Positions 2,878 through 55,600 of a stretch of 64,000 nucleotides of DNA are shown in pieces; the first letter of the stretch is position 1; each line of letters starts with the position of its first letter. The position numbers were made by a program, and so were the translations under genes. The stretch covers positions 1-64,000 of IMG/VR virus record IMGVR_UViG_3300027771_001853. One strand, written 5' to 3'. The DNA comes from a virus. Under the pieces are notes generated by a model. It saw only the letters and a list, made by a program, of their open reading frames with translations. It did not search any database and had not been told where the DNA came from.

Positions 2878-4254
2878 TTAGACTTTTCTATCGTTTCTAT
2901 CCTTAATATTTCGTTTGGAGTAGAACTTGTTGTAGAGTTTCCGAGCTTGGTTGGCTCTCTTATTACGTTTCCTTGGGTTGTTGGATGATGATGGTCTCTC
3001 GAAATTAACCATGAAGGATATAGCAGCGTTTTCTGGGGTGTCAGTATCTAATAGTTTCCTATATGCTTTGTTCTCCTTGTTTTGTAGTTCGTACCACAGA
3101 TATTCTAATTGAGCTGTTGGGTCGGTCACAGTTAACTTCTTATCTCGGGCAAATTGATTTAATCTTAATAGTCTAGATTTATGCCATTGTGCTAACCCCA
3201 TAGATGTCCCACCGTCACCTATAACTCCTGTCTGCCAAGTACCGGCAGACTCCGTTTTAATGTTACCGGCAATACCGGCGGCTTGTGGTGATGTTAAACC
3301 CTTTCCTACAAAGAACTCTATAATTGTATTAGGGTTAACCTTAACTGAACCAGGGTAAAATTTACCACTTAAAGGTAGTACAAAATTAGCGTTTGGGTCT
3401 ACAAGTCCTTGATTCTCAGCGTTTTTAACAGCAGTAGGGTCATTTTCCTGTGGTTTCTTATTCACATTAACTTTATCCTTCATGGCCTTTAACATTTCAG
3501 TTGTGATTACCTCACCAGTATCCGATGGGAAATAATCTCTTTGGAACGCGTTAACCGCTGCTAGTGTTTCAGGACCATATTTACCATCTATACCGAACTC
3601 AGGTAAAATATAATTTCGGGCAATTAAGTCTGTCTGCATTTCTTCTACTTGGCCCTCCATTTCTGTAGGTCCGGAACCACCAGTACATTTACTACCACAC
3701 CCATCCCATAATATAATGGTCCCTTCGTCTCTTTTTACATCTGGTTCATCAACCACACTAGAACTTTCTATATGATGTTCAGGGTCCACCCATTTATTCT
3801 TATACTTTAATCCGAAATGTAAGTGAGCACCTAATGAATTACCAGAACCAGTTTTACCTCTATCACCACCTGTAACACCTATAAGTTGCCCTTTAGTGAC
3901 TTTTTCATTCTTATTAACTTTGATTTGACTCATATGACAATAAGAACTTTTATAACCATTATTATGTTTAATAATTATCATACCACCACAAGCACCACTA
4001 TCTCTATTAATTTTACTAACAGTACCATCTGCTATAGCGAATGCTTGGGTGTAGTCCGCTTTATAATCTGTACCATTATGTGCTCTACATTTTTGACCAC
4101 TTAGACATCGTTTAGGGGAAAACTTACTATTAACACTAAGGCCACCCTTTAATGGAGCACCTAAAACCGCTTCAGATAAAACCTTGATTTTCTTGGGTTT
4201 AAGACTTTCTATTAGAATTTCTAATTGCTCACTACTGATTATTACATTTCCCAT
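2878..4254 (-). CDS. Virion lysin: M23 peptidase + peptidoglycan-binding + tail lysozyme
   Basis: A 458-residue modular murein hydrolase. Residues about 50-160 form an M23 (LytM-like) metallopeptidase with the HNGTDY region and the HLHFG motif. Residues about 195-265 resemble a peptidoglycan-binding helical domain (GIDGKYGPETLAAVNAFQ). Residues about 310-440 resemble a phage tail lysozyme (NIKTESAGTW; GGTSMGLAQWH). Near residue 23 the segment KIKVLSEAVLG matches the [I/L]-x-E leader cleavage pattern found on many proteins here, so the first part may be removed in the prohead. It starts four bases after the giant gene ends, so the two are probably co-transcribed. Likely role: local cell-wall digestion on entry. 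Confidence 0.85.
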   Translation of the reverse strand: MGNVIISSEQLEILIESLKPKKIKVLSEAVLGAPLKGGLSVNSKFSPKRCLSGQKCRAHNGTDYKADYTQAFAIADGTVSKINRDSGACGGMIIIKHNNGYKSSYCHMSQIKVNKNEKVTKGQLIGVTGGDRGKTGSGNSLGAHLHFGLKYKNKWVDPEHHIESSSVVDEPDVKRDEGTIILWDGCGSKCTGGSGPTEMEGQVEEMQTDLIARNYILPEFGIDGKYGPETLAAVNAFQRDYFPSDTGEVITTEMLKAMKDKVNVNKKPQENDPTAVKNAENQGLVDPNANFVLPLSGKFYPGSVKVNPNTIIEFFVGKGLTSPQAAGIAGNIKTESAGTWQTGVIGDGGTSMGLAQWHKSRLLRLNQFARDKKLTVTDPTAQLEYLWYELQNKENKAYRKLLDTDTPENAAISFMVNFERPSSSNNPRKRNKRANQARKLYNKFYSKRNIKDRNDRKV

Positions 4255-4257
4255 ATA

Positions 4258-7200
4258 TTATAAGTATTCAAGTCCGTACCTTCCCACCCCTTGGTACCAC
4301 TTATCCGGTGGTATCATCTCCTTTAATTCTGAATTATCAGCATTTACGTAAGTTTCTAAATCATCCGTCTTGATTCTTCTATTTACGGTCCATTGTTTTA
4401 CAGAACTGTCCGTTTCTACTTCAGTAAACTTAGGGTCTGGACGGTCTACATCATCATCTTCCTTACCAACTGGTTCGTCACTTATTTGCATAGAAATTTT
4501 AATCAGTGTATCATCAGTTTTACCATCATAATCCATAATATTTATCTGGTTTTTCCCCACTTTATCCACAAAAAACACATTACCTCCAGATAAAACGTCC
4601 TCCAATCCAAAATCGGGTTCCCTCGCCTGTCCGTTTCTACGCTTAAACCCTAACCTTTTAAGAATCTCCATAAACTTTATATTGTTATTTTTTCCCCTTC
4701 TTAGTGAATCCTCATCTTCTAATTCATGAAGTAACCAATTATTCATTAATGTGTTAATTTCTTCACCCACATCATCTTCATAACCATAACCATCATAATA
4801 AATGTCAGATAGATTACTCTCAATTTCATTCCAAGGTTCCTTTAACATCTCTGAGAAGTTAGTGACCCCAAACATTTTAATAATCCATAATAGTTGGAGC
4901 CAACTAAGTTTTACAATTGTTTTATCCATATAAAAATCATCCTCAAATAAAAGTTCATCTGAAATGTGTTTGGACATCTCACTTGCTCTATGAGCCCCTA
5001 TACCATACCCTAATGCACTTATTATATCATTTAACACTTCAGTGACATCACCACCACCTATACGTTTCATTGGGTCTAGGATATCACCTTCGCCAGCATC
5101 CCTACTATTTTGTTGTATATATTCCTCATTTCCAGTTAACTCCATTACTTTATTCCAGTTAGCCAACGTATCTTTACTCCAATGTACAGCCGTATAATCA
5201 ACTTCAGTTTCTTCAACATCTTCATAGGGATGGTCGTACGTATTAGTGTCCCTACCAACCTCATAGAAATATAAATCATCGTCCGTTAACAATAACACGT
5301 CCTCCACATACCTATTCTTATCCATACGTATTTCCACACCATTATCCGTTATGTGTATTTGGTCCAATGAAGAAGAATACCCGTATGGGTTGGGTTCGTT
5401 ATCATATGATATAGTGGTGTCTTCACCCGTAAAATCTTCTAATGTATCATAGATATCCTCTTGGTTAGTTACACCTCTTTTTTCCTCATTCACCATAATA
5501 CCGTAGATTGATTTAAGAAAAGTGTCATTGGAAGATTTGTCACTATTTGATGTGGTATTGTTGGTACTGTTCATAAAGCCCTTTATATCCTCACTAGTCC
5601 TTATCATGTTAAATTTAATTTTCTCCCTCTCATCAAATTCTACATTAAAAAACTTGGCTAGTTCTGGTTTATCACTTAGATACCTTTTAAACTCTACCTT
5701 CTCTAAATACTTTAGACTATTCCCCAGCTTTTCGTAGAACGAATAAAAAGGTTTATCACGTAGAAACGGCACTTTTCCCTGATGGTGCATAATGTGAGTC
5801 TTTCTTCTATACCCCTCCTGTTCTTCTGTAATATATATTGTCCCTGTATTTAACAATTTTTTAATAAAATGGTCACCCAATCCTCCACAAACCGACTCAG
5901 AAATTAACGAACAAAAAGATTCTTTATTTAATGGTACCACAACTTTAACTTTACCATTATCGAACATAGTCCTAACCTTAATATTCTTATTTTCGATTTG
6001 TTCATTTAATTGTGGTTCCTTAAAAGTCATCCTACTATTCACCCAATCAGTTAAAATGTTAACCATTAAATCAGCTTCTTCTTGTGGTACTCCACGTTCT
6101 ACCATACCAGGAATTGTTTGGTATAGGACTTCTATCGGCACAAACCCTTCATGGTCGTAAGAATACAATTGCATCTTACCACCATCATAATCTAATTCAC
6201 CTTCTGGGTGTGGATATATACCAAAACTATTATCCAGTGCATCAAATAGTTGTGTGGTTAAGTCTATATTTTTTTTATCTTCTGGTTTGTCATACTGTTC
6301 TTGTAATTGTGAGTATATTTCAGGAAATAACTTACCATAGCTCTTAACCAACCTTCCCGCTAAACTATTAGCTTCATCTTCTATGGGTCCACCTATTTCT
6401 GGATGTGGTTTATCTATTAACCCATCTTCTTTTTGTTTATGGTGGACTAACTCATGAGCAATACTTCTTAATATATCAGCTAATTGTCTTTGGTACCCTC
6501 TAACCTTAACTATTTCTTTTTTATTATTATAGTAACCTGTAGTATATTCGGATGTTGGTTCTACCTCTACTTTAATTGGTGGTGAATTTTTAATCCCTAA
6601 TTCATTCTTAACAAAATCCACAAAATCATTATATCGTGCTTCACTATAAGGGTGGGTGGTATCTATAATATCTATTTGGGATTCACTTAATTCTAATTCC
6701 TCTTGTGTTTGGTATACGTAATCATAAAGTTCATCACCTAATAATTTCCCAAATGCTGAATCACTAGGGTAGTGAACTTTTGCCATGTTACGACTGTACG
6801 CGATATCCTCACCTATTTGTTTAAGTTCATTACCATACTCAGGGTATAAATCTGATAGGTACCTACCTATGAATCTACCTTGAGTAGCGTGACCAGAAGG
6901 GTATGACGGTGTAGAAGCACTCTGTAATGTTTCACTATCTAACGTTAACCCTTTTGCGTTTGCTATTTGCCATGGTCTTGGTCGATTATAGTGGTATTTT
7001 AATTTAAGAACTATAGCTCTCACTCCATTCATTACCTCCTTTATTTCATTAGTTGGGTACTCTAATTGTTTAGAGTTTAGGAAAATTTTAAAGTGTTTGT
7101 CCACATTATCAGCACTCTCAACCAACTCACTATCCACTTTTATGGTATCTAAATAATCTAGTTCTTCCTCAGTCGTATCTGATTCATTTTGTGGTGGTGG

Positions 7201-10200
7201 AATGTTTTTAAAATTATTTATAGGGAACCCGTTTAAACTACCTAAATCCTTACCCATTCTTCTTTTATGTTTATCTTTAGGTTCGTCCCTGAATACTAAA
7301 TCGTTAAGTGATTCATTTAATTCTCCTCTTAAAAATCCTTTTCTTAGTATCCATTGGTCCGCACGGCCAGACTGGGGAAAGGTTTGTGGGGAACTATCTT
7401 TAGGAAAAATATACAGTGGTTTCGCACGTCCTCCACCTGCTAACATAGCACCTGTACGTTGTTCGTCGGTTATGCCCAGAGGTTCAATTTGGTAATAAGG
7501 GTTATCGTAATCAGGACGGTTATCTCTTCTGTTGGGGTCGGAAGCGTTATGATTATACTTAATCCCTACAACCACATAAGGTTTATATAATTCTGGTGCC
7601 CCGAAATCATGAATCCCTTCAGTAGAGACTACTATTATCTCATCACCAACCATTAAATCTGGATTTAAGTTAGATTCTTTATGTTCAGTAATAGCTTGTG
7701 GTGGTTCAGCATAAATCCATGTATCACCTTGGTATAAACGTTTAGGTGAACTATGAATGTTATAACCAGGTTTAAGTGGTTCTGCAGGTTCTAAATAATA
7801 ATATCTTCGGTAGTCTACGTGGAGTTCATTTGTATAGTGGCTATCAGCTATTTCAATTACTCTATAAACACCAAATCTTTCTGGTATACTTTCATCTCTG
7901 CCAATACTCCTATCTTCAACATCAATTACCCTTATAATGTCATCTACTTCTAACTCAGGATTTAATTTAGTTTCTTTATGTTCTTTGATGGTTTTACCCA
8001 CTTTAATCCATGTATCTTCTTGGTACATTCTTTTTATATGCCTCAGGTAGTCACACTTCATCAGCTCTTCACAGTTAACATCTAGTGGTACTAAATCATA
8101 TGTATCAGTACCATCACCATTTCCAGACCATTTTTCATTCATCACCTCCTCTACTTTATACTTTCCCCATTTGTCCGGCATCCATTCAGATGCCATACCA
8201 ATATCAATTACTCTTATAACATCACCTACCTCTAACTTAGGATTTAACTCTGGTTGATTATGTTCACTAAGTGTTAATCTATCCACACCGTTAGCTCTTG
8301 GGGTATTGGTGAGAATCCATTCGTATATCCAAGGGTATAATAGTTTTTCATAACCCTCATAATCTCCGTACCCACTGTCCAAACTTTCTTCATATTCATC
8401 TAATTTGTCTTCTGGAACTAATGTATACCTCCACCTCCACTTTGATTTATGTCCGTTAGATTCTTTATCTACAACAGTATATGGTGTATATTTTGCTGGT
8501 CTCATCTGTTCACTAGGGACATTATATGTTGTTGTGCCATTTTCCCTCTCTCTATCTACATCCACTATGAGTATAGTATCACCATATGTTAATTCAGGAC
8601 TTAACCCTGGTTGTTCGTCGGTTTGTTCGTCCATGTTTCTTCTATTGCCATCATAATATTTGCTTGATTCATTCCCAAGTCCTTCGTCGAATTTACCTGG
8701 TTCACTAAACACAATATGGTCTAAAGTTAAATCCACTGGTAGACCTATTAACACAGAACGTAAATCTTCTTCAATCTCTTCGTATACGTAATTAAGTTGC
8801 TCTTCATATCCATCTTCTCCTAATTCACTTATCTCCCATAAAGATATATCTTGGACGGTACCATCTGGAAAACTTACTGGTAATTCTGTATCCCCATTAA
8901 CTACCACATTCACACTTACATCACCGTTATTGTAGTTGAATATATCACTTACAATATATTCGTATTGCCATTGGTCTTGTAACCCTTCTAATCTATCTTT
9001 TACAATGTTACTTAATTCTTCGTCCCCATAATACTCTTTTAGGTTATCCCAAACCACAGACCTCTCCTCTAAGTTACCCATATTAATCCCCAATAACTTT
9101 AACTTATTCTTGTCTAGTGTTGGCCCCATCTTTCTCCAGAAGTTGAATAGTAGGTCTTGTGTTTTTTTAGGGTCGTTTTGTATAATTTTAGATATTTCCT
9201 CTTCATTTAGTGATGAACCTAATTCATTTAATTCATCATTACTTACTTGACTCAGTCTACCTTCATCGATACCGTACAATTTGAAATAATCATTAAAAAG
9301 TGTCTCGTTTATTTTAAATCTTAAAGCACTTCTATCTAATTCTGACGTTAACCACGCTATTTCACCATTATAAGTGTACTCTGGACTATCCCCTGCATCA
9401 GCAATATCTGTCCAAACTAAATCATAGTCAATTACTGTTATATTTTTCTTCCATAAACTTTTAGAGAATTCCCTCTCATATATGTAAGGGTTAACAATTG
9501 TGAATGTTATCTCCGTTCTAACAATATGTTCCCTACCTAATGTATTCCAGGTTGACCTGTCCATACCACTATCGACGTGTTTAAGACTACCCACATCTAA
9601 CATAACTGGTATTACGTGTGTTGTCCCATCCACAAAACTTGCAAGTCTTTTATGTTTGACCTCCTTACCGGAGAGTTGTGACTCTTGGTTTATAATCTTT
9701 TCTTTCCAATCTTGATTGTGATATGTACGAAACCTTCTAGACTCTTTTAACTCTTTTTCTTCTACCCCTTGTTTAATAGGTAAAGGTGGGTCCAATAAAA
9801 ACTTTTGGTTAAGGTAGTTTCTTAATAGGTTTTCTACGAACCAATCTGGAACTGGTCTACTATCTGGTTCATTCGATGCAACATCCGAGACATATCGGGC
9901 AAATTTAAGTTTATATTTATCCCTAATCATTTGTAAAAGACCATCAGAAATGAAGAATACTTTACCTAATGGGTCATCACCAATAGCGACATCTGGAATA
10001 TAATCTCCTTCTGCAATATCCATCGCCTTTAGTACAACTTTACCCCACCAGGATTTATAACCTTTAGTATCTTTAAGTGCTGGTGTGATTATCTTATTAA
10101 TTGCTCTAGTCGCGGTAACACCAACAGCCGCTAATAATATTTGTGGTATAAAAAATGGTACAATTCTCCAAATAGTTTTAAATAACCCTCTTCCCATATC

Positions 10201-13200
10201 ACCAGTAATTCGTTTCCTAGTTGCCTCCTCAACTAGTTCTCGTAACTGACCAAACGTTATAGGTCCTTGTGCTGAACAAAACCCTTTTACCTTACAAATA
10301 TTATCTGTTACTTCACTGGAAGGTGCTACATACCCTTTAATAGCGTCTGTTTTACCACCAGTATAAACATATTCTGATTCTGGATTGTTACGTTCTACGT
10401 CATCTTCAACATCACTAACTATTTTTTCCCATTCACTATCTTCACCCTCAAAGTCTTCAGGGTCACTTGGTTCTAACATTCCTTGACCAAACACATCCGA
10501 ATCTTCTTTCAAGATGGCAATTTTTTTCGTATTATCTATCTCCAATTCATGGTCGTCAGTATCACCCCACTCATAGGGTTCCATATCAACATCATAATCA
10601 TACCAATGGTTTTGGGCTGTATCTGTTGCATCCTGACTATTATAAGCATTTATTTCTATGGTCCCAGATTCCCATGTTTTTTGCCAATAAGAATTGGTTG
10701 CTTGTACTTCGTATTTTAATGGGTAAGTTTTAATAGCTGTACCAACTTCACTATAATCACAAGGAACATCCTCCGCAGCATAACACCCTTCATTCCAATT
10801 ATCTATTGCCCATTTAGCGAATCTTGTTGAACTAGCGTAGTAACCTCCATCATATTGAGTAGGTATACCAAAAAGTTTTATATTTTTAATCCACTCATCA
10901 TCTGGTATTTCCAAATTAGAAATAATATAATTCAATTTATCTTTAGTAAAAATTTTAGTGATGAAATTTAAAATTTTAACTTCGTTGTTGGTTAGTGGTT
11001 CGTATATAGAATAATCTTCAGACTCTTTATCATCCCCTTCATTATCTGGTGTAAGCCAATCACCTGTGTTAGCCTCTGTTAGTATCATAGGTTTTTCGTC
11101 CAACCATTTATCTATTCTTTCCATCAGTTTTAGAAACTCAACACCAGTTACTTCTGTGTCATAGCTTTCATAATCACCATAATCGGTAACCTCAGTCTCT
11201 CCTCCCCAATCCCAAAACTCATCATTTCCTTTATCTGTTGCGTCATTTTCGTCATACGCTAAAAGAGTGACCTCACCTCTTTTGTATTCTACTTGGGAAC
11301 CACTTTCATCCCTTGTAACTGTATACCATTTTAGTGGGGTTCTAATTGGTGCACTTATATCTTTATAGTCCCCGTCTTCTGTAGCTTTATCCCAGTTATC
11401 TAGTGCAAGTTTAGCGAACTGTGAATGTTTTGCGTTATCATCAAAATTATTTGCCTTAGTTATACCAAATAATTTTAAGTATTTAAAATATTTGTTTGCC
11501 GAACCATAATTATGTGGTGTTTCAGTGGTTAAATCTTGTAGTTCAGTTCTAGTAAAATTTCTGTAAAGCATTTTTAAAATACTAAGTTCAAAATTTGTAA
11601 AAGGGTGGGTTTCTGAATTGATTTGGTTTATTAGCTCCTCATCATGATGTTTATCGGCTGACCAATCCTCCTGTTCAACAATAGAATGACCACTTGCACC
11701 AGGTAACTTTTCGTGTTGGGATTGGGTTAATTTTTGTTCATCTGACAAGTCTGGTTCGTAAGTTAATTCAGTCAACCTATCACTTAGTGTTTCATTTATG
11801 TCATAGTCTGGCTGCCAATATCCGTCATACCATCGTGTATCTACTTGTAAACATTCACCTCTTTTTCCCTCACAATACTCACCCATCATAAATTCTTCTT
11901 CAACTAACATACCAAATAGTGCTGTTGCGTTGATTTCGTGGCTATGCATGTCGTTTATCATGATACTTTCTATGGTTTCTCCAATATAATCTGTGTGGTA
12001 TTCAAACACATCTTCAGTATTATCCCATTTATCATTTATCCAATCTCTAAGGTCACTATTAATAGTCCAGCTTATTCTACCGTTGTCATCTCGGTTTATT
12101 TTACCGTATTCCTGAAAATGTTCTGCTAATTTATCTTCAATATCATTACCCATCGCATTTAATGTAGCGTATGTTGATTCGTCATTGTTTGCCCACAATA
12201 TGTAGTGTTGGATATCGTCTATTTCTCCTTCGTATTTTTCTATTAGTTCTTCTTCCTCTTCGTTTTGTGGTTGTTCAGATAGTATGTGTTCTGCAACTTC
12301 CTGAGATACACCACCAAAAATACTACTAATAGTTTTCCAATTACTTTCATCAATTTGGTCTGTCATGTAAGTGTCCCACTCAAAATTAAACCAATCTTCC
12401 GTTTCGTTAAATTCGTCATCACCACATAAGTATTGTTTAATATACTCATCTTTTCCAATCTCTATCTCAAATAGATTTGATAGGTCATCACAATTAAGAG
12501 TATAAGATACTGGAATAGGGGTTTGACTAAATTGGATGTATCTTTTTAATAACATTGACATTAGTAAGTCTATACCCTCTGTTAAACCAAGCAGTTTTAA
12601 CACACCAACATCTACCCCTCTCTTATCCCATTGTCTAAAAATCACTTCAACCATATTGTCTGGTAGGGAATCCTCAACATGTTTAATTTCATCATCATCT
12701 AAATGACCTACAGGGTATTTAAATTCTCCTGTTGGCCACATTTTTATTTGCTTACTGTCTTGTTCCAACATTCTTTCACCTTCCCCATTAAATCTTTCCT
12801 TCTTTACACCTACTAAGCTTTTAAGAAAAATCCCTAGGTAATATACAGTATCACCTTCGTTTTCTTCTTCAAATTCTACAACTTCCCCCTGTTTATTATC
12901 AGGAAAGTGTTCCCAAATTTGTGCTTCATCTTCGTCTGTGTAGTCATCCGTTTGTTCATCAAATATAAGAAAATTACCATCTGTCCCCTCATCTAACATC
13001 ATCAATATATCATCATAATCGTGCGTAGTCGACATGTCAACATCAGGTATACATAAAACCTCAACATGATTATATGGGTAAAAATAAACCTCAGTAGTTA
13101 GAGTATAGTACTCAACACACTCACAATCATCGTCTTGGATGTTTAGATTTATCTCATTTTCATCACACTCAACCTCCACGATAGACCCATCAGGTCTTAC

Positions 13201-15018
13201 AACTTCTTTTTCTTGTCTTTTACAATCACACTCTTCACCACTAAGTTCACCATAACCATCTTCATCACAATCTTCATCCCGTGCAAAAGAGGTAAATTCT
13301 CCTTTATAAGTTATATAATACCTCATAAACTCATCCGGCACCACTAAATTATCTGGTGGACCATCATAACTTTGATTCAAATGGTTTAAAGTTAACCATA
13401 CTACTTGTGCTGATTCTTTTTGGCCTCTAGGAAAACTAAAATACTGAACTAGGACATCCCAGAAATTGGTGAATGTGTACTTTCCTCCACGTCTCCTTTC
13501 CATCATTTTATAGACTGTTTTTAGGATAGAGTGTAGTTTTGGGTGGGTGTATCCGTTGTATGATAAATCAGCTTCATTTAGGTTTCCCTTAGTTTTAGTT
13601 CTTTCTAACTCAAACTCATCATCTTCCCAGTCATTCTTTCTTTGTTCACCCTCGTCATTATAATCAGAAGCTCCTGTGTCTACTAATTTAATTACGTTTG
13701 GGTACGTAGGTTGTTTTAGATATTCGGTAACGGGAACTCCTGCACGTTCTAATTCTTTCATAAAATTATAAAGGGTGTAGTAATCTTGTTTTAAGGTCCC
13801 ATTAATCATTTCACCTCTTTCGTCTGGTGGAAACTCATCCATACATTTTCCCAGTCCAGATTCGTCAACACCATCCTCACCACAATAATGTTTAAACTCC
13901 TCAACTATATCTTCATATACATCAAATAACAATATTGCGTGTACCCAATCTAAGTTTGTATTATCTATTATCTCTAATCGGTCGTTGAGTGTTGGTAATC
14001 CAGCATCATCTATTACTCTTTTAGTGTCTTCCCATTCTTCCTCCTCTTTATTAAATTTGGTGATGGAATTACCTCTAAAGTCATAGTGATATGTGTCGGA
14101 CCAATCTACACTAGAATTTAAAAGTCCTAATTTCTTTCCATCATGAACTGCATCTGCAACAGTCTCCAAAGCATCCTCAAAGTTACCACCTGGTCTATTA
14201 AAACTTTCTACATATGCTGATGGGTGATAGGTGTTGTATAAGTTACTATATAACTGGTTACGGTATTTAGGCCATATAGACGTTAAGAACTTCTTAGTTA
14301 GTTCAGTTTCGGTTGACCCTTCAGTTATCTTTTGTTTTATGTCTTTAGTTTTTACCCATTTAACTTCACTTTCTACCAGGTTAAACGTTTTTGGGTGCAT
14401 GGTAACAGATTCTAGTAGGGTATCACTTTCGTTAACTGTGACTGGCATCCCACCATCCTCAAAACCAATAACTAATAAAGATTCATTTAATAAATCACTG
14501 TTAGATTCTAATTTAGTTTCTATTATTTTTACAGTATCACCAACATTAACTACGGGATTTACCACTTCGTTGGTTGGGCTTTCTTCTAGATATTTTAGGT
14601 AATTAGCCCAATTTAGTTCTGCCTTTGCTGAAGATACCTCATCTGGGTCTTTGTCATACCCACCTTTACGGTTTTCTTCTTTTTTATCTGGGTCTTGTAA
14701 GTGATGAGTGTATTCGTGTAATAAGGCTTTAATGATGTCTTCTTTATCTTTCATATTAGGGTAATATACGAATATCTTATTTTCATATACATCGTATTGT
14801 GCTTTTGACGTTTGACTTTCTTCTCCTTCCATCTCTGGAATACCACTTAATCTAGCATAGATATCCTTCCATAATTCAACTGTAGGTGTTCCATCCACAT
14901 ACATACTTTTACCTAAGTCGTTTACGATATGTGGGTACACTTTATCTATAATATCCTGTACAACGTATTGTTGGTCGATATCGTACTGTAATTCTGAGTC
15001 TAATATTTGTTTATTCAT
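4258..15018 (-). CDS. Giant multidomain virion-type protein (about 3,590 aa)
   Basis: The start is set at 15018 (MNKQILDSELQYD); an in-frame ATG at 15066 would add 16 residues. Visible parts from the N-terminus: a zinc-protease-like HEYTHH motif (residue about 101); beta-rich NPxVxVGD repeats near residue 157 and four more at about 2143-2450; acidic, Cys-containing stretches; two copies of a KLFGI/DNW/AYDxxDATD domain near 1180 and 1380; a hydrophobic segment (IVPFFIPQILLAAVGV) near 1630; a PAP2-type phosphatase signature (NRPRPW, PSGH, SRNMAKVHYPSD) near 2660-2760; and a second HELVHH motif near 2856. Strings such as ILTEAN and ILKEDS resemble prohead-protease sites and could split it. No whole-length family is recognised. 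It precedes the lysin gene, consistent with an injected or tail-associated virion protein. Confidence 0.85.
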   Translation of the reverse strand: MNKQILDSELQYDIDQQYVVQDIIDKVYPHIVNDLGKSMYVDGTPTVELWKDIYARLSGIPEMEGEESQTSKAQYDVYENKIFVYYPNMKDKEDIIKALLHEYTHHLQDPDKKEENRKGGYDKDPDEVSSAKAELNWANYLKYLEESPTNEVVNPVVNVGDTVKIIETKLESNSDLLNESLLVIGFEDGGMPVTVNESDTLLESVTMHPKTFNLVESEVKWVKTKDIKQKITEGSTETELTKKFLTSIWPKYRNQLYSNLYNTYHPSAYVESFNRPGGNFEDALETVADAVHDGKKLGLLNSSVDWSDTYHYDFRGNSITKFNKEEEEWEDTKRVIDDAGLPTLNDRLEIIDNTNLDWVHAILLFDVYEDIVEEFKHYCGEDGVDESGLGKCMDEFPPDERGEMINGTLKQDYYTLYNFMKELERAGVPVTEYLKQPTYPNVIKLVDTGASDYNDEGEQRKNDWEDDEFELERTKTKGNLNEADLSYNGYTHPKLHSILKTVYKMMERRRGGKYTFTNFWDVLVQYFSFPRGQKESAQVVWLTLNHLNQSYDGPPDNLVVPDEFMRYYITYKGEFTSFARDEDCDEDGYGELSGEECDCKRQEKEVVRPDGSIVEVECDENEINLNIQDDDCECVEYYTLTTEVYFYPYNHVEVLCIPDVDMSTTHDYDDILMMLDEGTDGNFLIFDEQTDDYTDEDEAQIWEHFPDNKQGEVVEFEEENEGDTVYYLGIFLKSLVGVKKERFNGEGERMLEQDSKQIKMWPTGEFKYPVGHLDDDEIKHVEDSLPDNMVEVIFRQWDKRGVDVGVLKLLGLTEGIDLLMSMLLKRYIQFSQTPIPVSYTLNCDDLSNLFEIEIGKDEYIKQYLCGDDEFNETEDWFNFEWDTYMTDQIDESNWKTISSIFGGVSQEVAEHILSEQPQNEEEEELIEKYEGEIDDIQHYILWANNDESTYATLNAMGNDIEDKLAEHFQEYGKINRDDNGRISWTINSDLRDWINDKWDNTEDVFEYHTDYIGETIESIMINDMHSHEINATALFGMLVEEEFMMGEYCEGKRGECLQVDTRWYDGYWQPDYDINETLSDRLTELTYEPDLSDEQKLTQSQHEKLPGASGHSIVEQEDWSADKHHDEELINQINSETHPFTNFELSILKMLYRNFTRTELQDLTTETPHNYGSANKYFKYLKLFGITKANNFDDNAKHSQFAKLALDNWDKATEDGDYKDISAPIRTPLKWYTVTRDESGSQVEYKRGEVTLLAYDENDATDKGNDEFWDWGGETEVTDYGDYESYDTEVTGVEFLKLMERIDKWLDEKPMILTEANTGDWLTPDNEGDDKESEDYSIYEPLTNNEVKILNFITKIFTKDKLNYIISNLEIPDDEWIKNIKLFGIPTQYDGGYYASSTRFAKWAIDNWNEGCYAAEDVPCDYSEVGTAIKTYPLKYEVQATNSYWQKTWESGTIEINAYNSQDATDTAQNHWYDYDVDMEPYEWGDTDDHELEIDNTKKIAILKEDSDVFGQGMLEPSDPEDFEGEDSEWEKIVSDVEDDVERNNPESEYVYTGGKTDAIKGYVAPSSEVTDNICKVKGFCSAQGPITFGQLRELVEEATRKRITGDMGRGLFKTIWRIVPFFIPQILLAAVGVTATRAINKIITPALKDTKGYKSWWGKVVLKAMDIAEGDYIPDVAIGDDPLGKVFFISDGLLQMIRDKYKLKFARYVSDVASNEPDSRPVPDWFVENLLRNYLNQKFLLDPPLPIKQGVEEKELKESRRFRTYHNQDWKEKIINQESQLSGKEVKHKRLASFVDGTTHVIPVMLDVGSLKHVDSGMDRSTWNTLGREHIVRTEITFTIVNPYIYEREFSKSLWKKNITVIDYDLVWTDIADAGDSPEYTYNGEIAWLTSELDRSALRFKINETLFNDYFKLYGIDEGRLSQVSNDELNELGSSLNEEEISKIIQNDPKKTQDLLFNFWRKMGPTLDKNKLKLLGINMGNLEERSVVWDNLKEYYGDEELSNIVKDRLEGLQDQWQYEYIVSDIFNYNNGDVSVNVVVNGDTELPVSFPDGTVQDISLWEISELGEDGYEEQLNYVYEEIEEDLRSVLIGLPVDLTLDHIVFSEPGKFDEGLGNESSKYYDGNRRNMDEQTDEQPGLSPELTYGDTILIVDVDRERENGTTTYNVPSEQMRPAKYTPYTVVDKESNGHKSKWRWRYTLVPEDKLDEYEESLDSGYGDYEGYEKLLYPWIYEWILTNTPRANGVDRLTLSEHNQPELNPKLEVGDVIRVIDIGMASEWMPDKWGKYKVEEVMNEKWSGNGDGTDTYDLVPLDVNCEELMKCDYLRHIKRMYQEDTWIKVGKTIKEHKETKLNPELEVDDIIRVIDVEDRSIGRDESIPERFGVYRVIEIADSHYTNELHVDYRRYYYLEPAEPLKPGYNIHSSPKRLYQGDTWIYAEPPQAITEHKESNLNPDLMVGDEIIVVSTEGIHDFGAPELYKPYVVVGIKYNHNASDPNRRDNRPDYDNPYYQIEPLGITDEQRTGAMLAGGGRAKPLYIFPKDSSPQTFPQSGRADQWILRKGFLRGELNESLNDLVFRDEPKDKHKRRMGKDLGSLNGFPINNFKNIPPPQNESDTTEEELDYLDTIKVDSELVESADNVDKHFKIFLNSKQLEYPTNEIKEVMNGVRAIVLKLKYHYNRPRPWQIANAKGLTLDSETLQSASTPSYPSGHATQGRFIGRYLSDLYPEYGNELKQIGEDIAYSRNMAKVHYPSDSAFGKLLGDELYDYVYQTQEELELSESQIDIIDTTHPYSEARYNDFVDFVKNELGIKNSPPIKVEVEPTSEYTTGYYNNKKEIVKVRGYQRQLADILRSIAHELVHHKQKEDGLIDKPHPEIGGPIEDEANSLAGRLVKSYGKLFPEIYSQLQEQYDKPEDKKNIDLTTQLFDALDNSFGIYPHPEGELDYDGGKMQLYSYDHEGFVPIEVLYQTIPGMVERGVPQEEADLMVNILTDWVNSRMTFKEPQLNEQIENKNIKVRTMFDNGKVKVVVPLNKESFCSLISESVCGGLGDHFIKKLLNTGTIYITEEQEGYRRKTHIMHHQGKVPFLRDKPFYSFYEKLGNSLKYLEKVEFKRYLSDKPELAKFFNVEFDEREKIKFNMIRTSEDIKGFMNSTNNTTSNSDKSSNDTFLKSIYGIMVNEEKRGVTNQEDIYDTLEDFTGEDTTISYDNEPNPYGYSSSLDQIHITDNGVEIRMDKNRYVEDVLLLTDDDLYFYEVGRDTNTYDHPYEDVEETEVDYTAVHWSKDTLANWNKVMELTGNEEYIQQNSRDAGEGDILDPMKRIGGGDVTEVLNDIISALGYGIGAHRASEMSKHISDELLFEDDFYMDKTIVKLSWLQLLWIIKMFGVTNFSEMLKEPWNEIESNLSDIYYDGYGYEDDVGEEINTLMNNWLLHELEDEDSLRRGKNNNIKFMEILKRLGFKRRNGQAREPDFGLEDVLSGGNVFFVDKVGKNQINIMDYDGKTDDTLIKISMQISDEPVGKEDDDVDRPDPKFTEVETDSSVKQWTVNRRIKTDDLETYVNADNSELKEMIPPDKWYQGVGRYGLEYL

Positions 15019-15037
15019 TACTTTTTTCTTATCTTTG
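15006..15037 (+). promoter_or_regulatory. Bacteroidota-type promoter for the HAD gene
   Basis: TTTG (15006-15009), a 20-base spacer and TATCTTTG (15030-15037) match the known Bacteroidota -33/-7 consensus. It points at the gene at 15111, leaving a leader of about 70 bases, and overlaps the start of the divergent giant gene. Confidence 0.65.
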
Positions 15038-15110
15038 TATTGTAGTTCAACATACAATAAATACATCGGAACTACAGCTATTTTTATAAATATTAACTAA
15101 TACACATTAT

Positions 15111-34504: not shown

Positions 34505-34671
34505 AGTGATGTGTTTTCTTGTACGTATTCCTCAACCACCTCAATTTCATCTTCTTTTTTAAGGACACATTCAGCACAACAACTACTAACTCCGTGGTTT
34601 ACTTGGATTGGTGTGAACCAAGTCATTAAAGCTGCCATAAATAACCCTAGTACCTGTATTGTTTTTCTCAT
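34501..34671 (-). CDS. Small exported Cys-rich protein (56 aa)
   Basis: A 56-residue frame (MRKTIQVLGLFMAALMTWFT...) has a signal-peptide-like N-terminus followed by SSCCAECVLKKED and an acidic tail. It overlaps the TonB-receptor start by four bases and its own start abuts the upstream gene, so it is probably co-translated. It could be a periplasmic partner of the receptor. Confidence 0.6.
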   Translation of the reverse strand: MRKTIQVLGLFMAALMTWFTPIQVNHGVSSCCAECVLKKEDEIEVVEEYVQENTSL

Positions 34672-36523: not shown

Positions 36524-36556
36524 AGTTCTTTTTTTTACGAAATTATTTATAAAAGG

Positions 36557-37894: not shown

Positions 37895-37895
37895 T

Positions 37896-38273: not shown

Positions 38274-38279
38274 AATATT

Positions 38280-38876: not shown

Positions 38877-38887
38877 ATTATAATTTT

Positions 38888-45227: not shown

Positions 45228-45650
45228 TTAGATTTTGTCACCGGTAGCAATACCAGCTTTAAAGTCTAATTTAACATTAAGGGTAAAATCTCCCTTTTTA
45301 TTAGTTAAGGTATAATCTGAATGAAATTTACCTTGTTGGCTTTTGTGTGATTTTTTAAACCCGACTATATCAAAATTATGGTCTTTAAGGAAATCCCTAA
45401 AGTGCTTGTCATATTGTTTATATGCTTTAGCTTCTTTTGAGTTTGATGGGTCTTTCGGTTCTGCGTCAACTTCAAACATCTCCCCTTCTTTAGTTTCGTG
45501 ATGTCCTTCCTGTGTAGGTGCTGGTTTACGTTTTCTAGGGCTTACTGGGTTGTCAGAAAAAGGGTAAGATAATTTCTCATCATCTTCCTTTAGTACTTTA
45601 TTGATTATGTTAACCAATTCTTTTTCCGTTAATTTTATAATGTTTGACAT
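45228..45650 (-). CDS. Leader-bearing hypothetical protein (140 aa)
   Basis: The N-terminus has ELVNIINKVLKEDDEK, a leader ending in VLKE. A charged, Pro-rich stretch follows and then a small beta domain (DFTLNVKLDFKAGIATG). TATTTAT and TATAAATA-like sequence lies upstream of the ATG. Function unknown; a packaged internal protein is inferred from the leader. Confidence 0.6.
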   Translation of the reverse strand: MSNIIKLTEKELVNIINKVLKEDDEKLSYPFSDNPVSPRKRKPAPTQEGHHETKEGEMFEVDAEPKDPSNSKEAKAYKQYDKHFRDFLKDHNFDIVGFKKSHKSQQGKFHSDYTLTNKKGDFTLNVKLDFKAGIATGDKI

Positions 45651-45680: not shown

Positions 45681-46130
45681 TTACCGTTTTTCCAATCCTT
45701 TTATTTTTTTCCACATACGTTTAAGACGAGTTTCATCACCAAAAAATACTTTTGCTATAACCAAACCAACAAATCTAATCATTGTATAGGTTAAACCTAT
45801 TGCTAGCATAAAGAATAATAGTGTTGGGAAGTACACTATAGAAAACGATATTAGGTATTCTTTAGTACTATCAAAGGGTCTATATGTTTTTTGTGAATTA
45901 AAATTTTCCGTTCTCTCTTGTAATACAAGTGGGTCTTCTCCCCATTTAACTTGTGGTGGTGTGAGTTCACTACAATTAACACAGTACCCACTTTGGTAAG
46001 TACCGTATAAAGAACTTAAAAGGTGCAACACCATAAAAAATATAACTATGTTTTTAAGTTTGAATATTGTTTTACGGTATTCAAAAAGTTTACTACTTAA
46101 CTTGTTTAATATGTTTAATATTTTTTCCAT
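45681..46130 (-). CDS. Two-span membrane protein (149 aa)
   Basis: Hydrophobic helices near residues 27-45 and 92-125 flank a soluble loop containing GYCVNC (CxxC). The C-terminus is basic (RLKRMWKKIKG). It overlaps the 82-residue gene by 38 bases, so a downstream start is possible. Not recognised. Confidence 0.55.
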   Translation of the reverse strand: MEKILNILNKLSSKLFEYRKTIFKLKNIVIFFMVLHLLSSLYGTYQSGYCVNCSELTPPQVKWGEDPLVLQERTENFNSQKTYRPFDSTKEYLISFSIVYFPTLLFFMLAIGLTYTMIRFVGLVIAKVFFGDETRLKRMWKKIKGLEKR

Positions 46131-46341
46131 CTGGATTTTCTTTATCTAATTCTAACTCTTCGTCTTCAGTAGTCAAGTCGTCAGCTACAGGAATGGGGTG
46201 GTCCCCATTCAAAGGTCTGTCTTGTGGTGCTCTTCTAACAGAAAAAACTCTACCTGGTGATATGTAGTTACCAGCTACCGCTTCTTTTACTATTTCTATT
46301 AAAGTATTAATCATACCCATAAATATGTTTATTTTTCCCAA
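46093..46341 (-). CDS. Small leader-type protein (82 aa)
   Basis: The N-terminus MINTLIEIVKEAVAGN (from the second Met) carries an IVKE-A site like the packaged candidates. The rest is polar and acidic (DDLTTEDEELELDK). TATTTAT lies four bases before the start. No family recognised. Confidence 0.55.
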   Translation of the reverse strand: MGKINIFMGMINTLIEIVKEAVAGNYISPGRVFSVRRAPQDRPLNGDHPIPVADDLTTEDEELELDKENPDGKNIKHIKQVK

Positions 46342-50716: not shown

Positions 50717-51115
50717 TTATTCCCTAGTCTTAATATACTCTAGAATGGTTGTTGCCATTTGTTCATCAAAAAACTCTGGGTCTAATTCAGCAACTATTTC
50801 ACTTGTAGTGTCATCACTTTCTAACTCACCAGTTTCGAGATATATCACGTACTTAGGTGGGCCAAAAACAGTTTCATATTCTAAAACTAACTGACCACCT
50901 TTATATGGTAAATTTTTAATCACACTATTTTCTTCTTCTGGTTCGACATGTTGTGGGTCACCAGGTTCAGCGTATTTTTGTTGTGTTTTTTTAAAAGAAT
51001 CGTCATAGAAATAATCAGGATTACCACCTGGAGTATCATTTCTAGAGTCTTCTTTAATAATTTTTTTAACCAAGTTTTGTATGTGTTGTGGGGATATGTT
51101 TACCTTTCTTTTCAT
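50717..51115 (-). CDS. Leader-bearing hypothetical protein (132 aa)
   Basis: QHIQNLVKKIIKEDSRND at the N-terminus is a leader ending in IIKE-D. The remainder holds a small beta domain (YKGGQLVLEYETVFG; KYVIYLETGELESDD) and an acidic tail. Its start touches the DHH gene stop, placing it in the operon of packaged candidates. Confidence 0.62.
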   Translation of the reverse strand: MKRKVNISPQHIQNLVKKIIKEDSRNDTPGGNPDYFYDDSFKKTQQKYAEPGDPQHVEPEEENSVIKNLPYKGGQLVLEYETVFGPPKYVIYLETGELESDDTTSEIVAELDPEFFDEQMATTILEYIKTRE

Positions 51116-52539
51116 TATTGGGTTAGTTTTTTAAGTTTTTCTACCATAGCGTTTTGAATCCATTTCACCATTTTAACATATTTTGTTTGTTGTCCAGATT
51201 TCTTTTTGTATGGTTTGTCAAAATTTCTTGTCGCTCTACTAAAAAAGTTTAACCCACTTATGTTAGTTATACATTTATGCCCTCCACTATTAGACTGTAT
51301 AACATCCCATATAGAAACTGTTATTCTATCCAGATAACTTTTTTCGGTCTCAGTTAAATTTGCCCAAGGTGTATCCACCATTTTAATTGTATTTCCATAC
51401 TCTGGGGAATCTTCAGGTGGCATATTTTGTAAATGGTCCTTATATAAAGCAAATAAATCAGACGATTTAAAACCAATACTTTCTTCTTCAGCTTTAGTTT
51501 CACCTATACGTTTTATAACAGAAATGGGTACTTGGTGTCTTTGTAGTCCTGGTTTAATGGTCTCCAACACTTCTTGAGCTACATCTGCTAAGTTCACACC
51601 TTTAATAGCTCTATCTTCTTTAAACGGATTACATGACGCTTGTACTAGACCCATAGGCCAAGCTATAACTAGAAAATCAGCGTCAGGGTATAATTTAAAT
51701 GGTGTGTACCTATCGTAAGACCCTGGTTTAAACATACTACCTCCACCGTATTGAGATATGATACCATCTTCGTAAGTTACATTAGCGTTTTTACTTTGTG
51801 CGTCCACATAACTTTCTTGGTTTTTTTGCATGTCTTCTGGTGTAGCAAATCCCCTTTCTTTTGCTATCCTCCTAATGTTATTATAGATGTTTAACAGAGA
51901 AGGTTCTGATGTCATAACTAACTCTTCTAGAAACCCTGGTTTATTTTTATAAGCTAATAACAATTTATTTGTTAATAGTGCTAACATTTGTTTATTCTTA
52001 GGTACACCACCTTCTTTATCCAAGTCGTACAAATAATTCATAACCTCTTCAGGTTTAATCCCATACTTCGCATAATCAGCACTATCCATGGTAGAAATCA
52101 TCCTAATATCATCATTAGGGAATATATCTTGTGGGCTTACTATTTGAGATACTGTCTCAACGTTTGACCTTGCTCCTCTAAATTGGGTTGACGTATCATC
52201 TTCTACCCCAGTTTGGCTATCGTGATGGTCAGTATGTATAATCATCTGTGGTTTACCGTGAGCAAAATCCACCAATACTGGCATAACATCACCCCTAGCT
52301 TTATCTATTAGTGGTTTTTGTACTGAAAATTCCTTATCACCATATTGGATTACATGACTACCTATAACTTTTATCCCGTAAGATTCCAAATAATTCTTCA
52401 TCGCTAAAGCAGTTGTAACCCCATCCGTATCTTGGTGGAAGTATATTTCCGCTTTAGGGTATCTTTGAGCTAACGCGGTAATATTACGTATTCCGCTTTC
52501 TTTTAATAAGATTTGTGAGAGTGTATTAACTAATTCCAT
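51115..52539 (-). CDS. DHH-family phosphoesterase with leader (474 aa)
   Basis: It begins MELVNTLSQILLKESGIR (leader, LLKE-S). The DHH domain shows IYFHQDTDGVTTALAM, PVLVDFAHGKP and IIHTDHHDSQTG, the metal-binding set of RecJ-like exonucleases and oligoribonuclease/cyclic-dinucleotide phosphodiesterases. A C-terminal region with HKCITNISGLNFF resembles a DHHA1-type substrate domain. It could degrade host nucleic acid or signalling nucleotides; the sequence does not choose. TATTTAT lies three bases before the ATG. Confidence 0.78.
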   Translation of the reverse strand: MELVNTLSQILLKESGIRNITALAQRYPKAEIYFHQDTDGVTTALAMKNYLESYGIKVIGSHVIQYGDKEFSVQKPLIDKARGDVMPVLVDFAHGKPQMIIHTDHHDSQTGVEDDTSTQFRGARSNVETVSQIVSPQDIFPNDDIRMISTMDSADYAKYGIKPEEVMNYLYDLDKEGGVPKNKQMLALLTNKLLLAYKNKPGFLEELVMTSEPSLLNIYNNIRRIAKERGFATPEDMQKNQESYVDAQSKNANVTYEDGIISQYGGGSMFKPGSYDRYTPFKLYPDADFLVIAWPMGLVQASCNPFKEDRAIKGVNLADVAQEVLETIKPGLQRHQVPISVIKRIGETKAEEESIGFKSSDLFALYKDHLQNMPPEDSPEYGNTIKMVDTPWANLTETEKSYLDRITVSIWDVIQSNSGGHKCITNISGLNFFSRATRNFDKPYKKKSGQQTKYVKMVKWIQNAMVEKLKKLTQ

Positions 52540-52551: not shown

Positions 52552-53160
52552 TTACGCACATCCACCTGAAGAACAAAATAAGGTGGAGGTCGCTATTCTT
52601 CTTTCATTATGCCCCCAGTCACCGTTTATTATGGTGTTAGATGCTTTTTTATAATTTCCTTGTTCAATATCCACAATAAGTGTAGGAGAATGTATAAAAG
52701 CATTACAACCTATATTATACGCTATATCAATCATTGCACGATACATACCTAAAGTTAGTAAACGATTATTCGTGTCTCCAGTTGTCGCTCTAGATTGCCA
52801 ACTTTTTATACATCTTGCCGCTTCGTTAATATCAGGAACCGTTAATGCTTTTGCTGTTTGGAGGGTCATCTCTTTATTGTTATCCCTATATTCTTGAATA
52901 ATTGATTCTTGGGTTGTCCCGAATCCAATAGTTAGTGTACCGTAAATTGTGCCTCCAGTATATCTAATAGGTGTTCCTTCTTTCCACTTTCTCATATCGT
53001 CATACACATAAGGAATGTGGTTTCCATATACGTCTCCTTCATGTTTCCTTATATGGTCAAACAATTCTTGGCCAGCTACATTTCCAGTCCCTTTTTGAAA
53101 ATCCAAAAAAGTCGGTGTAGTTTCTTCTACTAATAACGATAATGTATGAAGTAATCCCAT
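52552..53160 (-). CDS. GH24-type lysozyme with leader (202 aa)
   Basis: A leader MGLLHTLSLLVEETTP precedes a phage lysozyme: IRKHEGDVYGNHIPYVYDD supplies the catalytic Glu, GTLTIGFGTT the Thr/Gly strand, and IDIAYNIGCNAF the family helix. An insertion of about 20 residues separates the Glu from the TIGFG strand. The leader suggests a virion-internal lysozyme rather than a pure endolysin. TATTTAT lies four bases before the start. Confidence 0.85.
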   Translation of the reverse strand: MGLLHTLSLLVEETTPTFLDFQKGTGNVAGQELFDHIRKHEGDVYGNHIPYVYDDMRKWKEGTPIRYTGGTIYGTLTIGFGTTQESIIQEYRDNNKEMTLQTAKALTVPDINEAARCIKSWQSRATTGDTNNRLLTLGMYRAMIDIAYNIGCNAFIHSPTLIVDIEQGNYKKASNTIINGDWGHNERRIATSTLFCSSGGCA

Positions 53161-53893: not shown

Positions 53894-53934
53894 TATCTAT
53901 AAAAGTAATTATAACAATATAATTATCGAAACTC

Positions 53935-54189: not shown

Positions 54190-54198
54190 TAAAATAAT

Positions 54199-54387: not shown

Positions 54388-54397
54388 TTTAGTTGTA

Positions 54398-55600
54398 TCA
54401 CCTATATCTACCATACCTATCTAAATTCCCATCAGGTTCTATAAAACTCCATTCTTCCCAGTTGGGGTCTATTTCATTACTCAATAAATCTTCTAACCAA
54501 GGTATTAATTTAATCGGTATCATAATTTCAGGGTCATATGGTACGTACCAATCTTCATTTCTCACTTCAAGTACCTCACTATTACCTTCTTCAAATGCTT
54601 CCCACACCCAAGTAGTGTATTGGTTACCATAAGCTAACCCATATAATTTAAAAACCTGTATAATATCATCCATTACCCCTCTTACCTTAACTAATGCAAA
54701 TTCAATATTTTCTTCAACATCTCGCCAACTACCATCTCTTTTTCTCATTGCTTCTGGCCATCGTCTTTGTGCATTAAAATATGCCTCCAACCATACCCTT
54801 AATTCTTTCCGGTATTTACCATCAATAATATTGAATGCTATGTCCTCATCTACATCTTCTTCTTCTTCTGTTTCTTCTTGTTCTAAAATGTGGTCTCCAG
54901 CTGAGTGTTTGTGGGACGCGTGAGAAGTTAATTGTACTTCTTCTAGTTCTTCATCAAACACATCTGAATCCATATAATCTATAAAGTCAGAAGTAAAAAC
55001 CCCTTCTGTTAAATTATCTGGTGGTGTGTTTCTGTTTTTAAGTTCACGTAATCTCCTAACTAACCTATTAAATAGATTTTTTATTGATAGTATTCCGACG
55101 GAGAATAATAAAGCTTTAAAATATTGGGGTGCCATCTCCATGGTTAGATGTTCTGAGTTCGTGTAGGCCCTGATAGCGTCTATAATTGGTAGAAACATAA
55201 ACGTAAACGAAGCTATGTCTAGTAGGTTGGTAACTACGAATCCCGAGGTTTCCGCTATTTTTATACCAATATCTTCTACGGTTTTTAAAAAAGTAACTGA
55301 TTTGTTTAGTGTCGGTTCTAGTCCCCTACCTTTAATAAGGTTTACTAGTTTTTTAATTTCCGCACTATTGTCCCTTATTACCAAAGCGACTGCTGCTATA
55401 AAAACCATAGCAATTTCTACTTCAGTAAACTTAGGGTCTTGATTTAATAACAAGTCTTTAACTGGACCATAAAATGCCGTTATACCAGCACCCCATGTGA
55501 GTGTTCCCTCTATGTGTACCCCCACACTATCAAGTAATTCTTTTAAAAAACTATCTTTAGTGTCTTGTTGTTCTAATATAAGTTCTATTTGTGTTTTCAT
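54398..55600 (-). CDS. Leader-bearing membrane/KLFGI protein (400 aa)
   Basis: A leader MKTQIELILEQQDTK is followed by helical, partly membrane-spanning segments (IAMVFIAAVALVIRD; FTFMFLPIIDAI; ALLFSVGILSI). Near residue 238 DHILEQEETEEE repeats the leader motif, and then a KLFGI-type domain follows (QVFKLYGLAYG; TWVWEAFEEGN). The layout suggests two modules separated by a second cleavage site. TATTTAT lies seven bases before the ATG. Confidence 0.68.
   Translation of the reverse strand: MKTQIELILEQQDTKDSFLKELLDSVGVHIEGTLTWGAGITAFYGPVKDLLLNQDPKFTEVEIAMVFIAAVALVIRDNSAEIKKLVNLIKGRGLEPTLNKSVTFLKTVEDIGIKIAETSGFVVTNLLDIASFTFMFLPIIDAIRAYTNSEHLTMEMAPQYFKALLFSVGILSIKNLFNRLVRRLRELKNRNTPPDNLTEGVFTSDFIDYMDSDVFDEELEEVQLTSHASHKHSAGDHILEQEETEEEEDVDEDIAFNIIDGKYRKELRVWLEAYFNAQRRWPEAMRKRDGSWRDVEENIEFALVKVRGVMDDIIQVFKLYGLAYGNQYTTWVWEAFEEGNSEVLEVRNEDWYVPYDPEIMIPIKLIPWLEDLLSNEIDPNWEEWSFIEPDGNLDRYGRYR

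Follow-up and report, generated by a model that had tools for sequence, protein, structure and literature searches.

An exchangeable N-terminal leader with a fixed [I/L/V]-x-Glu junction marks putative capsid cargo in an uncultured T4-like giant phage

Why should a superoxide dismutase (SOD), a kinase-like protein, cell-wall hydrolases and several other proteins of one phage begin with the same kind of short amphipathic peptide? The question is raised by the window analysed here, the whole stretch of 64,000 nucleotides comprising bases 1-64000 of the 297,623-base virus record IMGVR_UViG_3300027771_001853. In it the initial annotation had singled out thirteen proteins whose N-terminal stretch ends in [I/L/V]-x-E, and had read this leader as a capsid-targeting sequence (CTS) of the kind removed from the internal proteins of phage T4. 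Our data show that the shared leader is real: the four strings quoted as examples were all found (MKKLIRNILKEE at 38888-39358(-), STLLTEAKK at 16211-16870(-), KTVLREETD at 17523-18398(-) and KKIIKEDS at 50717-51115(-)), and [ILV]-x-E occurs within residues 6-40 in 13/13 named proteins, with leaders of 10-28 residues. The sequences show a leader that is portable, that ends at a fixed [ILV]-x-E junction recurring in the prohead protease itself, and that belongs to a phage with a gp23/S77 head. With considerable confidence we take the leaders to be propeptides of the T4 kind, cut by the S77 (gp21-type) protease, the cargo being kept in the head and injected.

The weightiest evidence comes from orthologues, first from those of the protein at 16211-16870(-), in which Pfam recognizes both Fe/Mn SOD domains (Sod_Fe_N, E 4e-14; Sod_Fe_C, E 8e-41). 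Among loci whose ORF (open reading frame) fitted the search expression, 80 IMG/VR loci and the window gave 77 phage SOD ORFs with 42 distinct N-terminal segments, and 41 of the 42 carry [ILVM]-x-E at 8 or 10 residues upstream of LPY, where the SOD fold opens, compared to 3/57 distinct bacterial segments (65 ORFs, 80 loci) with the motif 4-16 residues before LPY. The lone phage exception, seen in three loci, begins directly at the domain and may reflect a mis-set start. The junction Glu is invariant in 23 aligned phage SODs, and so are H48, H98, D181 and H185, which we take to be the metal ligands. Pairwise identity of 8 close relatives is 0.38 in the leader and 0.81 in the mature part (in this alignment the window row lacks its first codon), and an AlphaFold2 model places the leader as a low-confidence helix (block mean predicted local distance difference test 51 and 39) off a confident core. 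In distant SODs the junction lies up to 160 residues in, where another domain precedes. Many phage SODs are fusions, either with ~280 extra C-terminal residues (~509-520 aa in total) or with an N-terminal domain of ~120-130 residues (361-369 aa in total); L029:5911-7452, L034:5572-6654 and L074:5554-7650 are among the fusions. In those found among loci L024-L092 the [ILV]-x-E junction still stands just before the SOD domain, and the extra parts of six fusions scanned gave no Pfam match over the cut-off.

The second family is that of the protein at 51115-52539(-), for which the name DHH phosphoesterase stands as a Pfam match (E 4e-4) and falls short in score, 21.1 bits against a cut-off of 28.1. 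After two loci without a full ORF were dropped, 80 loci yielded 78 ORFs with 48 distinct N-termini, and all 48 have [ILV]-x-E exactly 20 residues before HxDxDG. Upstream of it the leaders are 7-42 residues long and of at least three types, from MKKIIKE to MKIEITEQQLEFINKSLLNE and MKRLKLTESEIDSLIDRVLLKE. As far as can be read from these orthologues, the junction is fixed while the leader upstream of it varies in length, sequence and type.

The initial annotation had proposed looking for the prohead protease gene, and a Pfam search located it: the record holds a single S77 match (PF03420, E 1.5e-26) at 240342-240809, in surroundings that resemble a T4-ordered head cluster (portal and scaffold named by position and by eye). 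The capsid protein of the record is of the gp23 type (PF07068, E 1.3e-63). The named relatives ranked highest are the capsid proteins of Flavobacterium phage immuto (68% of the query aligned at 35.9% identity), of a Microcystis phage and of Rhodothermus phage RM378; judged by these relatives, a Bacteroidota host is likely. T4 and immuto have an S77 match each, and crAss001 has none. The S77 proteins themselves carry [ILVM]-x-E 22-27 residues before NxRxYP in 17/17 records read, these being the first 17 S77 records known. In a logo over SOD, DHH and protease N-termini (n=105), in which the site was placed by its Glu for SOD and protease and independently of it for DHH, P1 is Glu, P2 is variable, P3 is I/L/V in 105/105 and P4 hydrophobic in 101/105, and P5 is not hydrophobic in 100/105 (hydrophobic in 5/105). 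The capsid proteins of the phage and two relatives have LINE/AT among several [ILV]-x-E sites in their first 100 residues (a slash marks the junction here and below), and the T4 controls read MKTYQEFIAE/A in IPII and IPIII, TITE/A in IPI and FLTE/AE in gp23. An S77 protease beside a gp23-type capsid protein, and a junction that stays while the leader is exchanged, support the T4-like interpretation of the initial annotation.

From these patterns we infer docking, cleavage, packaging and injection. A short amphipathic N-terminal peptide would dock the protein onto the prohead core during head assembly; the leader would come in a few interchangeable types (MKxLIKKILxE, xLTExQ/D...vikE and perhaps others); the S77 protease would cut after polar-hydrophobic-[ILV]-x-Glu; and the mature enzyme would remain in the head and enter the next host with the DNA. 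The putative cargo proteins of the window, followed by one further possible case, are these:

2878-4254 (-), peptidoglycan hydrolase (M23, peptidoglycan-binding and phage-lysozyme2 domains; Pfam), leader MGNVIISSEQLEILIESLKPKKIKVLSE/AVLG
15538-16227 (-), P-loop kinase-like protein (AAA_33; Pfam), leader ...MVTESQIEKILMTE/AKVVGF
16211-16870 (-), Fe/Mn superoxide dismutase (Pfam), leader MVMNNLIKKILRSTLLTE/AKK
16864-17526 (-), protein with a phrog_7595-like C-terminus (PHROGs), GTG start, leader MRDIIKRILEE/TKKK
17523-18398 (-), protein of no known family, leader MKSIIKTVLRE/ETDD, assigned by motif only
25819-26706 (-), protein weakly matching FolE (GTP cyclohydrolase I; NCBIfam E 0.0011), leader MKMDTRKILRE/YVEE
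38888-39358 (-), protein without Pfam match, leader MKKLIRNILKE/EYKN, assigned by motif only
45228-45650 (-), protein with an LTE-type leader, MSNIIKLTEKELVNIINKVLKE/DDEK, assigned by motif only
46093-46341 (-), short ORF of 82 aa, TTG start, MGKINIFMGMINTLIEIVKE/AVAG, assigned by motif only
50717-51115 (-), protein with an LTE-like leader, MKRKVNISPQHIQNLVKKIIKE/DSRN
51115-52539 (-), DHH phosphoesterase-like protein, leader MELVNTLSQILLKE/SGIRNI
52552-53160 (-), T4-type lysozyme (PF00959; Pfam), leader MGLLHTLSLLVE/ETTP
54398-55600 (-), leader-bearing protein of no named family, leader MKTQIELILE/QQDT
19026-20675 (+), peptidoglycan-binding protein (Pfam), possible third leader type, MKKQQLLEQQEKIMKMFSYSPGMTISE/N

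Relatives back nine of the thirteen as leader proteins (2878, 15538, 16211, 16864, 25819, 50717, 51115, 52552 and 54398), and in them leaders are repeatedly exchanged. Four relatives of the hydrolase at 2878 have other leaders (for example MKILITEKQLNRILLNE/E, MKIVITEEQLQKILKIKSTLNE/A and MKTLIKKILRETKVKLLNE/K), and a further 8 matches, with one domain only in common, have no leader; orthologues of 15538 present MKNLIKDIIKEELLLE/EKV, MRNLIKKILREETTPTLLLE/EKV and MVVRELIKKILREEFLSE/EKV at the kept junction. Relatives of 16864 swap leader types (MKIRLTESQ...INLDE/KKK; MKNIIKKILREETRYLNE/AKK), and its homologue KNV73_gp084 in immuto starts with MGKVNKAYIENIIKEILSE/KKADRC. The orthologues of 25819 read MRNRIKNLLRE/Y, MNTKRIIRE/F, MSKRIRQIIRE/Q and MKKIIKKILKE/E, one of 50717 (65% identity) reads MKRKINISPIQIQKLVKRIIKE/DAGK, and relatives of 52552 read MKLINQLTLLIE/Q and MRIIITENQLNTLVE/QTED. 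Those of 54398 are distant (22-28% identity) and have other leaders, such as MKIILTEEQYKEVLNE/NIIK, the junction being indistinct in three of the distant ones (L235, L236 and L238). A degenerate scan found no relatives of 2878 and 25819, which came later from the collected loci and genome searches; for 54398 and 52552 it found one contig, the same for both and 100% identical, and relatives appeared later among the collected loci.

The remaining four (17523, 38888, 45228 and 46093) rest on the motif, because no relative turned up among the loci collected, no IMG/VR scan having been aimed at these four. Of the thirteen leaders proposed, nine thus have support from relatives and four are carried by the motif, 46093 being the weakest of the thirteen. 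Searches of Pfam, PHROGs and NCBIfam gave no family match for 17523, and the leader of 38888 is similar to a leader type that we scanned over IMG/VR. From the three further cases listed as possible by the initial annotation, 19026 is plausible only, having one relative with MKKMKKNLINEDIRKMMGLIDYDRGKTLTE/N, 46329 was rejected and 56832 is unsupported. A further possible leader type was seen at L008:13431-13889, L008:14200-14601 and L008:2013-3284 (LTESEKDRIRGLH / VSEEEKNRIKGLH, once followed by LIKE/T). The predicted cargo includes the P-loop kinase-like protein at 15538 and the T4-type lysozyme at 52552, the initial annotation having listed a kinase and a lysozyme, and for the "deoxyribosyltransferase-like" protein no Pfam, NCBIfam or PHROGs support was found at E 0.01 among the proteins scanned.

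One could argue that the leader is a docking tag without cleavage, which attaches to the prohead core, or to some other component of the virion, and is never removed, [ILV]-x-E being part of the binding face. Encapsulin cargo-loading peptides stay on their proteins, and the leaders described here are amphipathic and portable. Targeting and processing by the T4 CTS are separable, according to the CTS experiments in PMC9026906. However, P1 Glu and P3 [ILV] persist when the remainder of the leader is replaced, P2 varies, and the N-terminus of the protease has the same logo, so we consider an uncleaved tag unlikely.

The portability of the leader was evaluated by scanning two leader patterns over 2.9 million IMG/VR contigs. 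M-K-K-L-I-K-K-I-L-K-E-E occurs in 2 contigs, both with S77, and the 11-residue pattern M-K-[KN]-[ILF]-I-[KR]-K-I-[ILMF]-[KR]-E was matched 60 times, in 52 stretches from 48 contigs. An in-frame stop lies at most 26 codons upstream of all 60 matches (median 5); therefore, 60/60 stand at or near ORF starts. Stripped of the 11 residues, 58 leader proteins (the 2 others are shorter than 40 aa) sort into 31 groups that show no blastp similarity to each other at E 1e-4; the largest has 14 members. A tblastn search with a 29-residue leader gave no match. Ten leader proteins were compared with Pfam and two of them matched, one a tRNA nucleotidyltransferase (PF01743, E 6e-40) and the other a GP88 protein. 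The protein of the tRNA nucleotidyltransferase/poly(A) polymerase type, at L330:1645-2802 (+), has the leader MKKLIKKILREN, which suggests that a relative may inject a tRNA repair function. Among the 35 leader-pattern contigs of at least 20 kb (the 13 others of the 48 are all shorter and lay outside this search), S77 was found in 12 and a gp23 match over the cut-off in 13. All 11 contigs with full-length gp23 have S77, the twelfth S77 lies at a contig end, and 4/4 contigs of at least 200 kb have both.

Several observations weigh against cleavage by S77 and packaging. S77 was not found in 23/35 of these leader-pattern contigs, in 18/27 IMG/VR contigs with the SOD (present in 9/27), in 11/15 contigs with the DHH protein (present in 4/15), and in two contigs with partial gp23 (G046 and G074). 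The contigs without S77 include ones of 160-194 kb, which also lack gp23 over the cut-off and may be fragments; both genes are missing from leader-pattern contigs of 187 and 160 kb. Beyond IMG/VR, SOD-bearing records have S77 in PA5oct and a Vibrio phage, and not in MW462191.1. Of 18 records tested for both genes, the phage included, 9 have gp23 over the cut-off as well as S77 and 9 have neither, one of the latter having a sub-threshold broken gp23 match; this all-or-none pattern fits fragments without the head module. Additionally, the DHH leader is just 7 residues long in many orthologues, and the motif gives false positives: relatives of 46329 have no motif, and both orthologues of the prohead-cluster protein L003:1460-2191 lack its LTE.

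The sole virion mass spectrometry (MS) set compared, that of the distant phage PA5oct, was negative as a validation set. Its proteins flagged by electrospray ionization tandem MS (ESI-MS/MS) show no significant excess of the motif at residues 6-30 (15/93 vs 21/167, p 0.46), the MS-negative set being 167 genes from ~41-260 kb without some short ones; at residues 6-20 the trend reverses (6/93 flagged vs 18/167), and other motif forms likewise do not separate flagged from unflagged proteins. The list may include non-virion proteins, because it flags ribonucleotide reductase and thymidylate synthase. A single anecdote from the same phage is EST35_0261 (MK797984.1 172979-173527), annotated as hypothetical, which matches the window SOD by tblastn at 26% identity, has an IAE/A N-terminus (MNDSIKKYISIAE/AASS) and carries the ESI-MS/MS flag; it is a candidate for a virion SOD in a cultured phage.

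How often would such N-termini arise anyway? ORF starts were set mechanically (longest ORF) in all sets, with annotated starts for some PA5oct and immuto counts. The counts covered 201.6 kb of the record's 297.6 kb, the window among them. Among ORFs of at least 60 aa, the bare motif [ILV].E falls within residues 6-30 in 102/222, compared to a shuffled mean of 74 and maximum of 93 (200 shuffles), and in T4 in 26/57. Therefore, the three-residue motif cannot mark cargo alone, and we rejected it as evidence of cargo, being too frequent here and in T4. The genome-wide comparison of N-termini that had been suggested gave enrichment with stricter forms. When ORFs of 70 aa or more are counted, the amphipathic form [ILV]..[ILV][ILV].E is found in 17/210 phage ORFs vs 4.7 in shuffled ones (maximum 11 in 100 shuffles), in immuto in 6/49 (shuffled 0.7), in relatives in 8/132 (2.6) and in PA5oct in 14/384 (6.9), and it is not enriched in crAss001 (2/96, shuffled 2.2) or in bacterial loci of at most 45% GC (11/863, shuffled 14.5). 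The form polar-hydrophobic-[ILV]-x-E behaves alike: 34/210 vs 17.1 in the phage (z 4.2), z 3.8 in relatives, 6.7 in immuto, 2.6 in T4 and 5.5 in PA5oct, and no enrichment in crAss001 (z 0.3) or bacteria (z -0.8). An equal frequency in unrelated bacteria, named beforehand as an argument against the capsid-targeting interpretation, was thus not observed. In the window alone this form (12/70 vs 6.1) ties the best of 200 shuffles, which is only suggestive. Over the 201.6 kb the strict forms exceed every shuffle, and the excess suggests that the two thirds of the genome covered hold ~12-17 true leaders. The idea that crAss-like phages carry LTE leaders was dropped, as crAss001 shows no enrichment.

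A second alternative is an intracellular sorting tag, directing proteins to the membrane, the replication compartment or degradation, in which case its bearers would stay out of the virion. Membrane binding is conceivable for an amphipathic helix, and the PA5oct flags do not favour motif-bearing proteins. However, the motif equals the protease's own N-terminal site and the LINE/AT site in the propeptide region of the major capsid protein, and it is not enriched in crAss001, a phage without an S77 match; a sorting tag is hence very unlikely. Least of all do we believe in chance, that is, in Lys/Ile/Glu-rich N-termini of AT-rich genes yielding [ILV]-x-E accidentally: this is true of the bare motif, and of the three possible proteins one fails and one is unsupported, but for the set as a whole it is contradicted by strict forms that beat every shuffle, by conservation in relatives and by the 60 database matches at or near ORF starts. 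It may hold for the single proteins 46093, 46329 and 56832.

Some neighbouring features deserve a record. Directly upstream of the hydrolase at 2878-4254, on the minus strand, a single ORF of 3602 aa spans window 4258-15066 (-), ~10.8 kb. In window 34671-43320 (-) several ORF starts resemble, by eye, secretion signals (MKKLLIILLSVITLTTYSQ and similar), which are unusual in phage proteins. Beside the head genes, L002:715-14348 (record 220.7-234.3 kb) is a run of 17 ORFs that look by N-terminal sequence and by eye like sugar-nucleotide, glycosyl- and methyltransferase genes; none of the 17 has the strict leader at residues 6-30.

Beyond this one phage, we lean towards the view that a plug-in packaging code is common to many giant T4-like phages, a large group that is uncultured and probably infects Bacteroidota, and that in this code a few interchangeable leaders sit on dozens of unrelated genes. 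The injected set would then be readable from the genome and would include metabolic and antioxidant enzymes, such as the SOD, acting before phage expression. If this is true, a short tag predicts the proteins injected by giant T4-like phages, most of whose genes are unannotated and whose virions are not at hand, and "hypothetical proteins" become a testable list of first-contact effectors. The injected SOD would suggest that these phages counter oxidative stress when they enter the cell, and the leaders would be candidates for delivery tags with which proteins could be packaged into phages other than T4 and P1.

The closest known system is that of T4 IPI, IPII, IPIII and Alt, whose CTS is cut by gp21 in a head that likewise has gp23 and an S77 protease. 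According to the CTS experiments of PMC9026906, packaging of IPIII needs only its first 10 residues, of which 4 and 7 act mainly in targeting while processing depends on 8 and 10. N-terminal propeptides of 10-19 residues stand on different T4 proteins, and those that we read in IPII and IPIII end in hydrophobic-[ILV]-x-E. In contrast to T4, the leaders here are Lys-rich amphipathic or LTE types that look different from the T4 CTS, one protein family can bear several of these types, and the predicted cargo includes many enzymes, namely SOD, DHH, kinase-like proteins, cell-wall hydrolases and, in a relative, tRNA nucleotidyltransferase. By eye the two share amphipathicity and a terminal hydrophobic-[ILV]-x-E and little else; because this likeness is slight, we claim that the leaders work like the T4 CTS, not that they descend from a common ancestor.

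Giant-phage ejection proteins (SPN3US and phiKZ, with an S80-type protease) are comparable in that propeptides are cut after x-x-E and many proteins are ejected with the DNA, as described in PMC5694885 and PMC7411985. In SPN3US, however, the motif is AXE, with several propeptides longer than 100 residues, and the cleavage-motif examples for phiKZ and 201phi2-1 are S-Q-E, whereas here we find [ILV]-x-E, mostly short leaders and S77; the A-x-E motif does not describe our sites, P3 being I/L/V throughout the logo. The N-terminal 30 residues of phage P1 DarB send a foreign reporter to the capsid, but this signal is described (PMC9024508) for DarB of the P1 Dar system and not as a tag across dozens of unrelated proteins. 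An SOD injected by a phage would have a parallel in the chlorovirus PBCV-1, whose virion contains a Cu/Zn superoxide dismutase, and superoxide is lower in cells infected with it than with virus lacking the SOD gene; this is, however, a eukaryotic algal virus with another SOD family, and the passages of PMC7019647 considered here mention no gp21-like leader. For capsid-targeting leaders in Bacteroidota phages we found no report in the open-access literature, which was covered in part and excludes subscription papers. Thus, the mechanism that we propose would be that of the T4 CTS, and what appears to be new, judging by the sequences, are the leaders themselves, their interchangeability and the breadth of the predicted enzyme cargo.

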